Virus record (IMG/VR): IMGVR_UViG_3300035180_001333
Coordinates: 1 to 21,167 of that record
Direction: 5' to 3' (one strand)
Length of the DNA: 21,167 nt
Origin: a virus
The number at the start of each line of letters is the position of its first letter. The stretch's first letter is position 1. Of the stretch, positions 319 to 19,100 are shown one piece after another. Both the position numbers and the translations under genes were made by a program. The notes under the pieces were generated by a model. That model did not search any database. It was not told the DNA's origin and saw nothing but the letters and a program-made list of their open reading frames with translations.

Positions 319-348
319 ACTATCACGTAATTCCTCCAAGTGTGTCAA
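319..348 (-). promoter_or_regulatory. Candidate leftward sigma70-type promoter
   Basis: Read on the minus strand there is a perfect -35 TTGACA (plus 343-348), an 18-base spacer, and a -10 GATAGT (plus 319-324, four of six consensus bases). It would start transcription near 312, giving a leader of about 75 bases before the ATG at 238. The -10 overlaps the sequence ACTATCAC, which recurs at 433-440, so it may also be under operator control. Confidence 0.45.
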
Positions 349-420: not shown

Positions 421-436
421 TAGTAATCACTTACTA
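421..436. promoter_or_regulatory. Operator-like dyad TAGTAA-TCAC-TTACTA
   Basis: The 16 bases form six-base perfect inverted arms TAGTAA/TTACTA around TCAC. The same sequence recurs inverted at 555-570 with 14 of 16 matches, and shares TAGTAATC with the element at 646-661. Dyads of this size repeated between divergent promoters are typical of operator sites for a dimeric regulator; the regulator is not in the window. Confidence 0.45.
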
Positions 437-487
437 TCACATGAAGGCGGCAATTGGGCAGCCCCCCCGTCTTACCGTAAGTAGTTG

Positions 488-508
488 TTTTTTTTTTATT
501 TTTTTTTT
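488..508. repeat. T10-A-T10 homopolymer tract
   Basis: Ten T, one A, then ten T. It lies mid-way in the divergent region between two operator-like dyads. No hairpin of useful strength precedes it on the + strand, so it does not look like a terminator. It could act as a stiff or bent A-tract, an UP-like element, or an easily melted site. Its exact length may also suffer sequencing error. Confidence 0.6.
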
Positions 509-554
509 CTGAAAGTAATACTTGAACAATCACTCGGTGAACGGGTAGCTGCGA

Positions 555-570
555 TGATAAGTGATTACTA
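555..570. promoter_or_regulatory. Second operator-like dyad, inverted relative to 421-436
   Basis: Read on the minus strand the site is TAGTAATCACTTATCA, matching the dyad at 421-436 in 14 of 16 positions. The plus-strand 13-mer TAAGTGATTACTA (558-570) is the exact reverse complement of 421-433. With the first site it brackets the T10-A-T10 tract. Confidence 0.4.
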
Positions 571-630
571 GCGGATTCCTAGCAGATGCCTGGGAACACG
601 GATAGTTGATTGCATAGAGATTGTGCACCC

Positions 631-673
631 GACTTATCGCGCCATAGTAATCGCGATTACTCCCGCCAATCAA
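631..673 (+). promoter_or_regulatory. AGTAATC element, copy 1 (perfect 16-base palindrome)
   Basis: Positions 646-661 read AGTAATCGCGATTACT, a perfect palindrome, followed by CCCGCCAATCAA (662-673). The last 28 bases match a second copy at 2018-2045 in 26 of 28 positions, and an upstream GACTTA (631-636) is kept at the same distance in both. It lies about 190 bases before the -35 at 867. It is probably a regulator-binding site or a phage-specific promoter. Confidence 0.5.
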
Positions 674-866: not shown

Positions 867-895
867 TTGACAAGGCTGCGCAGCATGATTAGATT
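867..895 (+). promoter_or_regulatory. Sigma70-type promoter for the 158/50-codon unit
   Basis: A perfect -35 TTGACA (867-872), an exact 17-base spacer, and a -10 TAGATT (890-895, four of six consensus bases). Transcription would start near 902, leaving about 50 bases of leader before the ATG at 953. A host-type promoter here means the two small genes could be expressed without phage factors. Confidence 0.6.
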
Positions 896-952: not shown

Positions 953-1429
953 ATGGCCCCGCAACGCAAGGTTTTCTCCAAGTCCTTCGACCTCGCTAAT
1001 ATGTCCGTAACCATTAGCACCCCCTCGCGTTCCGAAACTTACCTTATAAAGGGCATGTCCGAAGACATCCGCAACACGCTCATGCTGCACGGCTTGACAC
1101 AAAAGCTTTCCGACAAGTGCGCGGCGTCCGCCGGGGCGCTCACCGAAGACGAAAAGTGGACCGCCATGAACGAAGTCTATGCGTCCCTCCATGCGGGCAC
1201 TTGGTCCCTCAAGTCCGAAGGCCAGGGCACCATGCTGGTTCGCGCCCTTATGGAACTCGCGCCCAATTCCACCCTCGCCGACATTCGCGCCAAGGTCGAA
1301 GGCTGGTCGAACATCGAACGCCGCGCCGTTTCCGCCAATCCCAAGGTTGCCACAATTCTGCGCCGCATGGAATCCGAACGGGCTTCCGGCATCGACTCGG
1401 ACGAATTGCTTGATGACCTGCTTGGCTAG
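953..1429 (+). CDS. Conserved-type phage protein of unknown function (158 aa)
   Basis: The ATG at 953 follows a strong GGAGGT ribosome binding site. The 158-residue protein has no membrane segment. It contains a segment reading roughly 'IRNTLMLHGLTQKLSDKCA', followed by 'DEKWTAMNEVYASLHAGTW', and a C-terminal helical part ending in an acidic tail (ELLDDLLG). From memory this layout (an N-terminal strand region, then LHGL-QKL, then W/G-T-W) resembles a small protein found in many proteobacterial phages and prophages, usually without assigned function. It sits behind its own sigma70-like promoter, overlaps nothing, and is followed 14 bases later by a 50-codon gene. The pair ends at a terminator, so it is a separate unit from the terminase operon. 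Whether it is regulatory, a host-takeover protein or a packaging accessory cannot be told from sequence. Confidence 0.8.
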   Translation: MAPQRKVFSKSFDLANMSVTISTPSRSETYLIKGMSEDIRNTLMLHGLTQKLSDKCAASAGALTEDEKWTAMNEVYASLHAGTWSLKSEGQGTMLVRALMELAPNSTLADIRAKVEGWSNIERRAVSANPKVATILRRMESERASGIDSDELLDDLLG

Positions 1430-2071: not shown

Positions 2072-2100
2072 TTGACGCCGCGCCTACAGTCGGCTATATC
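2072..2100 (+). promoter_or_regulatory. Sigma70-type promoter for the terminase/structural operon
   Basis: -35 TTGACG (2072-2077, five of six), an exact 17-base spacer, and -10 TATATC (2095-2100, four of six). Transcription would start near 2107, leaving a leader of about 18 bases that holds the AAGGAG binding site of the first terminase gene. Confidence 0.55.
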
Positions 2101-2124: not shown

Positions 2125-2736
2125 ATGTCCGCCCCGCTTGCAGGTTCCAAACACGGCTACGACCTCAAGAAGCTTCGCTACACGCACGACGCGATGATCG
2201 ACGTGCTGATTGAGCGGCCCGAAATCAAGCAGTACGAACTCGCCGAAATGTTTGGCGTCACGAAAGAGTGGATCAGTATGCTGATGTGCTCAGACGCCTT
2301 CCAAGCTCGTTTGGCCGCCCGCAAGGCCGATGTGATCGACCCAATCGTCGCGGCGAGTTTCAAGCAGCGCATGGAAGTGCTGGCCCGCCGGTCCGTTGAG
2401 GTGCTGATGGAGAAGATGGAGGACAGCGCCGAGTGCGCGCCCAACGTTGCACTCGGCGCGCTGGGCATCGCGGCTAAGGGTTTCGGCTTCGGTGGCGCGG
2501 CACAGGTCAACGTGGACGCGCGCACGCAGACCCAGTTCGTCGTCGCCATGCCCGGAAAGGCACAGTCGAGTAAGGAATGGGCTGCCGCCTACGGGGCCAA
2601 GGACCTCGATGCCTCGTGCGCGGCGGACCACGAACTGGCCGTCCCGCCCCCGCCCCCCGGCATCGAGATGCTGACCCAAGCCAGCATCACCGAACCCAAC
2701 GACACCGAGCCGCCGATCAGGCCCATTGGCGGTTAG
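2125..2736 (+). CDS. Terminase small subunit (DNA-recognition)
   Basis: A 203-residue protein starting at ATG 2125 behind AAGGAG. Residues about 37-54 (YELAEMFGVTKEWISMLM) have the spacing of a helix-turn-helix, followed by a charged helical middle part suited to oligomer formation, and a Pro-rich C-terminal tail (PPPPPG) that is probably disordered. Small terminase subunits bind the packaging site on concatemeric DNA and hand it to the large subunit. The assignment rests on the helix-turn-helix and on the position directly before a clear large terminase, with the next start immediately after this stop. Low sequence conservation is normal for this family, so the fold is inferred rather than recognised in detail. 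Confidence 0.75.
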   Translation: MSAPLAGSKHGYDLKKLRYTHDAMIDVLIERPEIKQYELAEMFGVTKEWISMLMCSDAFQARLAARKADVIDPIVAASFKQRMEVLARRSVEVLMEKMEDSAECAPNVALGALGIAAKGFGFGGAAQVNVDARTQTQFVVAMPGKAQSSKEWAAAYGAKDLDASCAADHELAVPPPPPGIEMLTQASITEPNDTEPPIRPIGG

Positions 2737-6789: not shown

Positions 6790-7218
6790 ATGCCAACTTA
6801 CGACTTTGAGTGCCCCGCCTGCCAGCACATTGAGCGTGATGTCATGCGCTCGCTGGAGGAGTACGGTACCCTGCACCTTTGCCCACTGTGCGGAACCCCG
6901 TCCAACCAACTCTTGTCCGCCCCGCACATCGTCATGGACTACGCTGGGTATCAGTGCCCTGTTACTGGACGCTGGGTGGAAGGTCGCGCCGCACACCGAG
7001 AGAACCTCAAGCGGCAGGGATGTCGGGTCTTGGAACCTGGCGAGACGGAGCAGGTGCGGAGGGACAGGCAGCGCGCCGAGCGCGACTTCGACCGCGCCCT
7101 CGACAACACCATCGATGAACTGCTCTACAAGGCAGGCAGTGATAAGGTTGAAAAGCTTTGCAACGAGGTGGCGAGTGGCGTCACAGCGACAGTGGAACGA
7201 CTGCCGTTAACCAAGTAG
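6790..7218 (+). CDS. Small zinc-ribbon protein between portal and scaffold
   Basis: A 142-residue protein whose ATG (6790) is two bases after the portal stop, with GGAGGT inside the portal end as binding site. The N-terminus YDFECPACQH...LCPLCGT gives two CxxC pairs (Cys8/Cys11 and Cys31/Cys34), the FmdB/rubredoxin-like zinc-ribbon pattern. The middle is Arg/Glu-rich and helical and the end is unremarkable. Zinc-ribbon proteins of this kind are often found beside the portal in podovirus-like genomes. Their role is not established; a DNA- or protein-binding assembly factor or a regulator of late genes are both possible. The zinc site is clear; the function is not. Confidence 0.8.
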   Translation: MPTYDFECPACQHIERDVMRSLEEYGTLHLCPLCGTPSNQLLSAPHIVMDYAGYQCPVTGRWVEGRAAHRENLKRQGCRVLEPGETEQVRRDRQRAERDFDRALDNTIDELLYKAGSDKVEKLCNEVASGVTATVERLPLTK

Positions 7219-9352: not shown

Positions 9353-9368
9353 CCGAGAAGTGGACTTC

Positions 9369-9405
9369 ATTGGCAACAGTAATAAATATTAAATTGTCCC
9401 GATAA
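9369..9405 (+). promoter_or_regulatory. AGTAATC element, weak copy 3
   Basis: ATTGGCA (9369-9375) followed by AGTAATAAATATTAAA (9378-9393) resembles copy 4 at 19064-19088, which also has ATTGGCA at the same distance before AGTAAT. The dyad itself matches in only 10 of 16 positions. It lies in the short gap after the capsid gene and is much more A/T-rich than the surrounding sequence. A phage-specific promoter or regulatory site is possible. Confidence 0.3.
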
Positions 9406-9415
9406 GCCGGGACAA
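9394..9415 (+). other. RNA hairpin between capsid and decoration genes
   Basis: TTGTCCCG (9394-9401) pairs perfectly with CGGGACAA (9408-9415) around a six-base loop. No T-run follows, so a strong terminator is unlikely; the following sequence leads into the ribosome binding site of the next gene. It could stabilise the capsid mRNA 3' end or be an RNA processing site. Confidence 0.55.
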
Positions 9416-19050: not shown

Positions 19051-19063
19051 TGGATTGGATTAG

Positions 19064-19100
19064 ATTGGCACAAGTAATCCCGATTATTGTTCCCAATTAA
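19064..19100 (+). promoter_or_regulatory. AGTAATC element, copy 4
   Basis: ATTGGCA (19064-19070), AGTAATCCCGATTATT (19073-19088) and GTTCCCAATTAA (19089-19100) follow the same layout as copies 1 and 2, with 21 of 28 positions equal to copy 1 and no gap. It fills the 61-base gap between the large internal protein and the tail-fibre gene and ends right at the ribosome binding site. A promoter giving separate control of the receptor-binding genes is a plausible reading. Confidence 0.45.

Follow-up and report, generated by a model that had tools for sequence, protein, structure and literature searches.

Features of the window

The window analysed here is the whole 21,167-nt stretch of IMGVR_UViG_3300035180_001333, a tailed-phage fragment in which the large terminase, the portal (phrog_12082) and the major capsid protein (phrog_9953) were recognised. 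Its left end carries a group of inverted repeats that an earlier sequence-only reading had flagged as operator-like, and longer dyads stand there and further to the right. The features on which the analysis turns are as follows.

319-348, minus strand: leftward promoter-like site TTGACA-18-GATAGT, not beyond chance by number
421-441, plus strand: left arm of a 21-nt inverted pair, holding the TA-N6-TA-spaced dyad 421-436; not a canonical member
488-508, no strand: T10-A-T10 tract, read from the sequence
550-570, minus strand: right arm of the inverted pair, holding the imperfect dyad 555-570
634-673, no strand: 40-bp dyad with core palindrome 646-661; leave-one-out rank 1, 27.2 against a shuffle maximum of 15.0
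867-895, plus strand: rightward promoter-like site in front of gp953, TTGACA-17-TAGATT, not beyond chance by number
953-1429, plus strand: gp953, of a two-member family common to most of the group; sits between two dyads
2006-2045, no strand: 40-bp dyad of the terS upstream region, centred 46 bp before the -35 box; 29.6 against at most 15.5, shuffle maximum 14.6
2072-2100, plus strand: late promoter of terS, TTGACG-17-TATATC; 9/12, reached in 1/200 shuffles
2125-2736, plus strand: small terminase gene (terS), the first late gene, by homology and place
about 9366-9405, no strand: divergent dyad between the major capsid gene and the next start codon, which is 45 nt away; leave-one-out rank 1, 23.3 against 15.3
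19061-19100, no strand: 40-bp dyad 31 nt before the start codon of the fibre gene; leave-one-out rank 1, 28.9 against 19.9

Relatives were gathered via the large terminase, 80 loci being taken from 282 that matched. The nearest annotated record is MW202489.1, a circular, uncultured phage of 40,250 bp, which together with G001, G002, G003, G007, G013, G018 and G019 forms what we call group A; group B includes G004, G006, G008, G010 and G011. Two contigs from one sample, L004/L086 and L087, derive from the same phage as the window. The first shows 5 differences from it over the 7,442 nt compared, and L087 extends it rightward by 7,248 nt, adding two leftward genes, one for a DNA polymerase and one that matches the primase-like DUF3987 protein of MW202489.1. 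Assuming a genome length like that of its relatives, an early region of about 12 kb is absent from the sequence of this phage; it was searched for and not found. A TerL search of a bacterial genome set did not find the host, the nearest TerL being 55% identical and located in metagenome-assembled contigs of diverse phyla. Directly after the portal gene, 6790-7218 encodes a zinc-ribbon-like protein (Zn_ribbon_8 32.3 bits, cut-off 34.4) of a family present in 18/18 genomes compared. The 59-aa ORF at 39992-40171 of MW202489.1, annotated as class D beta-lactamase OXA-58, is far too short for that label, which is probably a mis-annotation.

Two kinds of dyad at 421-661

The three dyads at 421-436, 555-570 and 646-661 exist as the sequence-only reading described them, and they are beyond chance: TAGTAATC occurs three times in the window against 0.17 expected, a number that 0/100 shuffles reach. 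The first, TAGTAATCACTTACTA, is a perfect 6+4+6 dyad, the second, TGATAAGTGATTACTA, is imperfect, and the third, AGTAATCGCGATTACT, is a perfect 16-bp palindrome. The first two were rightly described as reverse complements over 13 bases (421-433 and 558-570, TAGTAATCACTTA) that flank the T10-A-T10 tract, and they belong to a longer inverted pair, 421-441/550-570, which matches at 18/21 positions, the best value for any 21-nt inverted pair in 238-952 and one reached in 0/300 dinucleotide shuffles. What does not hold is that all three are the same site type, because the 421 and 555 dyads have TA-N6-TA spacing and those at 646, 2018 and 19073 have TA-N8-TA. No counterpart of the 421/555 dyads was found, and the only other copy of the region is a near-identical contig. 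The 421/555 pair is an element separate from the 646-type site, and the cooperative binding with looping that had been proposed for the three dyads is unsupported, given the different spacing and the lack of a counterpart. The divergent promoters thought to enclose the cluster are present as sites, leftward at 348-319 and rightward at 867-895, but by themselves they do not exceed chance, two having been found where 1.1 are expected. A helix-turn-helix gene, for which the leftward module was to be checked, is not visible in the 79-aa leftward stub that the window contains (0 families).

The related copies that had been noticed far downstream are real, at 2018-2045 (93% over 28 nt) and 19073-19100 (75%), on the same strand. 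The full element around these cores is a 40-bp dyad, two-fold symmetric in a layout of about 13 bp, 8 bp and 13 bp, with a TA-N8-TA core. The sequence-only reading had thus caught a real regulatory site of the whole group in one of its letter-variants, together with two look-alikes. It had missed the copy at 9366-9405, which was found by reading homologous places across genomes. That copy does not pass a structure-only test (p 0.31) and hence rests on its sequence match. A perfect 8-bp stem with no T run, TTGTCCCG-ATAAGC-CGGGACAA at 9394-9415, overlaps it. A fifth copy, TTTGGCCGGATTA-TAAAATTG-TATTCCGGCCAAA, is found on an overlapping contig, within the coding sequence of the DNA polymerase (L094, ORF 309-2690; L178:881-912), and is the weakest of the five, scoring 18.2 against a shuffle maximum of 16.1. 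All 5/5 sites of this phage rank first in the leave-one-out search.

A site family conserved in place but not in letters

When relatives are searched for letters, the site seems to be lost: GTAATCNCNANTAYTNNNNCCAAT, the letters of the window's site, occurs in 0/19 relatives' records, and a database scan with the 28-nt element returned matches only in contigs of the same phage. This apparent loss was overturned once places were compared. The sequence-only reading would have counted against itself a loss of the dyads in relatives that keep the promoters; the letters are indeed gone, yet a phage-specific dyad stands at the same place. Within each relative, the DNA upstream of terS was compared with that upstream of the fibre gene, and in MW202489.1 a 44-nt element was found at both (score 19, shuffle maximum 12), its letters quite different from the window's. 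Dyads of about 40 bp are seen at the same places in the eight genomes of group A.

A catalogue was then built with symmetric weight matrices, iterated from seeds picked by eye, the window's 421 and 557 dyads having been removed before matrix building. It holds 94 sites in 15/18 genomes, 4-9 in each, every genome with its own version and often at homologous places. G006 was left out of the count, all three of its hits having been dropped; G012 and G015 were unseeded, nothing being seen by eye. Also dropped were G018 21759, which overlaps 21735, and weak hits in G004 (3527, 39334), G008 (20983) and G010 (10011). Because the seeds were picked by eye and the matrices iterated, a leave-one-out test was applied, in which 91/94 sites rank first in their own genome. 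The three exceptions all rank second and all belong to G003, where 19502 scores below the shuffle maximum (21.7 against 23.1). In a blind test that used structure only, on the 90 nt after the capsid gene, a dyad was recognised at p < 0.05 in 12 of 39 distinct loci. The dinucleotides T15A16 and T25A26 are both kept in 58/59 group A sites and 73/94 overall, a conservation that is partly built in because the matrix search favours such sites; in group B the core deviates. We regard the group-wide family as solid on the strength of these sequence comparisons, and no published description of it was found in the open PMC literature within the terms searched.

The matrix of one genome finds the sites of some relatives and not of others, so the operator code appears to be specific to a genome or a small set of genomes. 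Could the code instead follow the hosts, the dyads being binding sites of a host regulator that differ as hosts differ? The distance of the nearest bacterial TerL and the diverse phyla of the contigs that carry it would allow this, but fixed homologous positions and graded, phage-specific sequences fit a phage-encoded factor better, and we consider a host regulator quite improbable.

The places are held more tightly than the letters. After the capsid gene, the dyad centre is 43-54 nt from the start codon of the next gene in group A and the window and 34-35 nt in G004, G008, G010 and G011 of group B; before the fibre gene it is 24-35 nt from the start codon. In seven genomes, including this phage, a dyad lies inside the polymerase ORF, 579-588 nt from the ORF start in five and at 672 and 693 nt in the other two, presumably between a uracil-glycosylase-like part and the polymerase part, as judged by eye from characteristic motifs. 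The window has two dyads upstream of terS, centred at 653 and 2025 and 1372 bp apart, and their counterparts are about 1.27-1.95 kb apart in eight relatives (counted round the circle in MW202489.1). The occurrence of the 646-type site at homologous boundaries in 15/18 genomes gives good support to the earlier proposal that several late blocks share one regulator, and the sites reach beyond the late blocks.

Between the two dyads upstream of terS, the gp953 module (953-1596) runs rightward in the window and in five group B genomes (G004, G006, G008, G010, G011) and leftward in all eight group A genomes, a difference that is an inversion bounded by two dyads. The predicted structure of gp953 is mixed strand/helix (pLDDT 81.3), with no match in the PDB (best E 0.53). 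At 1620-1647, 3' of the short ORF 1444-1596, there is a terminator-like stem, CCCGTG-N10-CACGGG-TTTTTT, the loop of which exceeds the limit of the terminator scan. The inversion, seen in this phage and group B relative to group A, together with the 13-8-13 geometry, would fit lox-like sites at which a site-specific recombinase shuffles or inverts modules. However, the central 8 bp vary among copies, orientation follows phylogeny except in this phage, and no tyrosine recombinase (PF00589) or integrase was detected in 21 records, with controls detected in 14/14. Recombination at these sites is highly improbable, and the lox-like reading was rejected on the variable centre and the missing recombinase.

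DNA site or RNA hairpin

The dyads could also act after transcription, as RNA hairpins that serve as terminators, processing sites or leader structures; the repeats of G001, G018 and G019 were at first taken for terminators. In several post-capsid copies a short T run comes after a long GC stem, and the copies before the fibre gene adjoin the ribosome-binding site. The arms, however, do not covary: complementarity within sites is 0.691, compared with 0.689 +/- 0.009 after the arms are re-paired within a genome, and taken singly only this phage (22/500 shuffles) and G010 (7/500) lean toward covariation. Moreover, the terS promoter is itself downstream of the terS copies, and some copies, such as the window's, have AT cores and no T run. 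The lack of covariation led us to reject the hairpin or terminator reading, which is improbable, in favour of a DNA site bound by a dimer, the two arms behaving in these comparisons as independent half-sites.

Dyads and promoters

A sigma70-type promoter lies between the dyad and terS in every group A genome and in the window, its shuffle support being weak in G001, G002 and G007. The dyad centre is 45-47 bp from the terS -35 box in 8/15 genomes (the window, G003, G007, G008, G011, G013, G018 and G019), which amounts to 6/9 for group A and the window, with two more added by G008 and G011 of group B. The seven exceptions are MW202489.1 (19 bp), G002 (30), G001 (79), G004 (70), G010 (166), G016 (89) and G017 (88). 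In the six genomes compared, the 25-27 nt between dyad and -35 box match at only 6-11 positions and are unalignable, so that the spacing is kept and the sequence is not. A distance of 45-47 bp places the dyad centre at about -81, a position used by class-I activators; CRP acts from about -82 in this way, and phage phi29 p4 has a site near -82 of its late promoter. Among 18 held-out loci, nine had a usable promoter, with clear dyads at 43, 48 and 49 bp, a weak one at 46 bp and none recognised in five, from which the true tolerance of the spacing would be a few base pairs.

Of the sites in the leftward early region, 9/34 overlap a sigma70 promoter (at least 9/12) that points leftward and 1/34 one that points rightward; at late sites the figures are 1/30 leftward and 1/30 rightward, and the shuffled rate is 0.0055. 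Examples of overlap are TTGACG-17-GATAAT at G018 29352 and 34823. The remaining 25/34 early sites have no strong overlapping leftward promoter, and in group B with G016 and G017 the overlap is found at 3/21 early sites leftward and 0/21 rightward, and at 0/9 late sites leftward and 1/9 rightward. For the window's own 653 site, no rightward promoter lies at the right distance, and the leftward one is only a weak TTGATT-18-TACTAT. The post-capsid, pre-fibre and most polymerase sites have no strong promoter in register, and a single activator/repressor role therefore leaves them unexplained.

Among predicted promoters, then, about half of the genomes keep a nearly constant distance between dyad and terS promoter, and some of the dyads overlap strong leftward early promoters. 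Both patterns agree with a single protein that turns off early promoters and aids the late one, and it is likely, with good reason, that a single protein would have this dual early/late role. The control of both directions, which had been proposed from the divergent promoters of the window, is plausible on other grounds: in the relatives, leftward early promoters are overlapped by dyads, and transcription from the rightward late promoter would start about 81 bp downstream of one. That the dyads themselves are promoters for a phage RNA polymerase was rejected on the absence of a single-subunit RNA polymerase (PF00940) from 18/18 records, the T7 control being detected and the early part of the window's phage being missing from the sequence.

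A candidate for the binding protein

What might bind these sites? The regulator is probably a small early protein, and the first candidate suggested by the gene comparison is a small ribbon-helix-helix-like protein, an early family encoded leftward in 13/18 genomes. In most genomes its gene is a little downstream of a dyad, behind that of a putative zinc-binding protein; the ribbon-helix-helix label is a reading of the sequence and the zinc label a reading of the cysteines. The AlphaFold monomer has an extended N-terminus followed by two helices and no strand (mean pLDDT 81.1). No match was obtained in the PDB by fold or profile, and no significant family in Pfam, NCBIfam or PHROGs. Whole-protein co-divergence with the operators singled out no family, several others outscoring the candidate. 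Operator distance is correlated with residues 12-16 of the candidate, its presumed DNA-contacting strand (Spearman 0.56, Mantel p 0.0005); this is a lead, because the best 5-residue window of the protein (residues 11-15) comes only 55th of 4607 over all families, corrected for genome distance.

Two activator families with dyad sites were also considered. P2 Ogr and P4 Delta are zinc-finger activators that act on dyads upstream of late promoters, with the site centred near -55. MW202489.1 has a gene annotated as an ogr/delta-like zinc finger, which matched none of the six other genomes shown, and the dyad here is mostly at about -81 rather than near -55. The Mu C dyad, TTAT-N6-ATAA, resembles the inner core in some genomes, such as G018, but C binds just upstream of the -10 region, and no Mu C relative was seen among the 25 commonest PHROGs hits shown, in family scans of 32 MW202489.1 proteins.

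Discussion

The sequences show that these sites exist, that those of one genome can be predicted from each other, that their letters are peculiar to one genome or a small set of genomes, and that their two arms vary independently. We consider it reasonably probable that 634-673 is one operator copy for a phage-encoded dimeric regulator that represses early promoters and activates a late one. Each phage would encode a dimeric DNA-binding protein matched to its own operator, present in 4-9 copies. By covering early leftward promoters, probably including that of its own operon, the regulator would repress them, and at terS it would stimulate the host RNA polymerase, acting on the late promoter from about -81. 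The post-capsid, pre-fibre and polymerase-gene sites may fine-tune or block passing transcription. In the missing region of this phage, further TTGATTGGC...AGTAATC half-sites are predicted upstream of early operons.

This is reminiscent of the phi29 p4 switch. There, p4 is described as an early dimer that binds inverted-repeat sites, some of which overlap the -35 elements of early promoters, and as necessary for host RNA polymerase at the late promoter (PMC3100819). The likeness lies in a dyad that stands before the late promoter where an activator would in 8/15 genomes, the other 7/15 differing. Coverage of early promoters by the sites may be a second likeness, 9/34 early sites overlapping a leftward promoter (at least 9/12), with the early region of the window's phage missing from the sequence. 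The differences are that phi29 has four sites between A2c and A3, whereas here 4-9 are spread around the genome, some in the polymerase gene, and that the p4 target is CTTTTT-15-AAAATG.

A second comparison, with the stoperators of cluster A mycobacteriophages, offers a different mechanism: a pure repressor, like that of L5, would block initiation at promoters and elongation between or inside genes. According to two reports, stoperators are many sites in promoters and short intergenic spaces, with a motif that varies by phage and is genome-specific (PMC6550527, PMC9283540). The present system has likewise many genome-specific sites, 94 in 15 genomes with 4-9 in each, at gene boundaries and in one case inside a gene, some of them overlapping promoters. 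Stoperators, however, belong to temperate phages and are asymmetric, 13 bp long, each bound by a monomer and aligned with the direction of transcription. The dyads have two-fold symmetry over about 34-40 bp, and no integrase was detected in 21 records, which gives no hint of a prophage state. The nearly constant distance of 45-47 bp ahead of the late promoter also looks like activation. A stoperator-like repressor is thus unlikely, though it deserves to be taken seriously. By analogy, the dyad system may work like the p4 switch, and we would file it under neither p4 nor stoperators.

More tentatively, and with the chances somewhat against so specific a picture, one small dimeric switch protein, possibly of a new ribbon-helix-helix type, may run the whole group of uncultured phages from places that are conserved, including the one in the polymerase gene, the protein and its sites changing their letters together so that each phage has a private code. 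A motif that seems lost in close relatives can conceal a conserved site, a caution that applies to any search by letters. Here comparative sequence alone exposes an operator set in 15 genomes, its position conserved and its letters changed. Phages without an RNA polymerase of their own must retime that of the host, and the group could be viewed as a natural series for the joint change of specificity in a DNA-binding protein and all of its sites, and as a source of candidate promoter/operator pairs that ignore one another.
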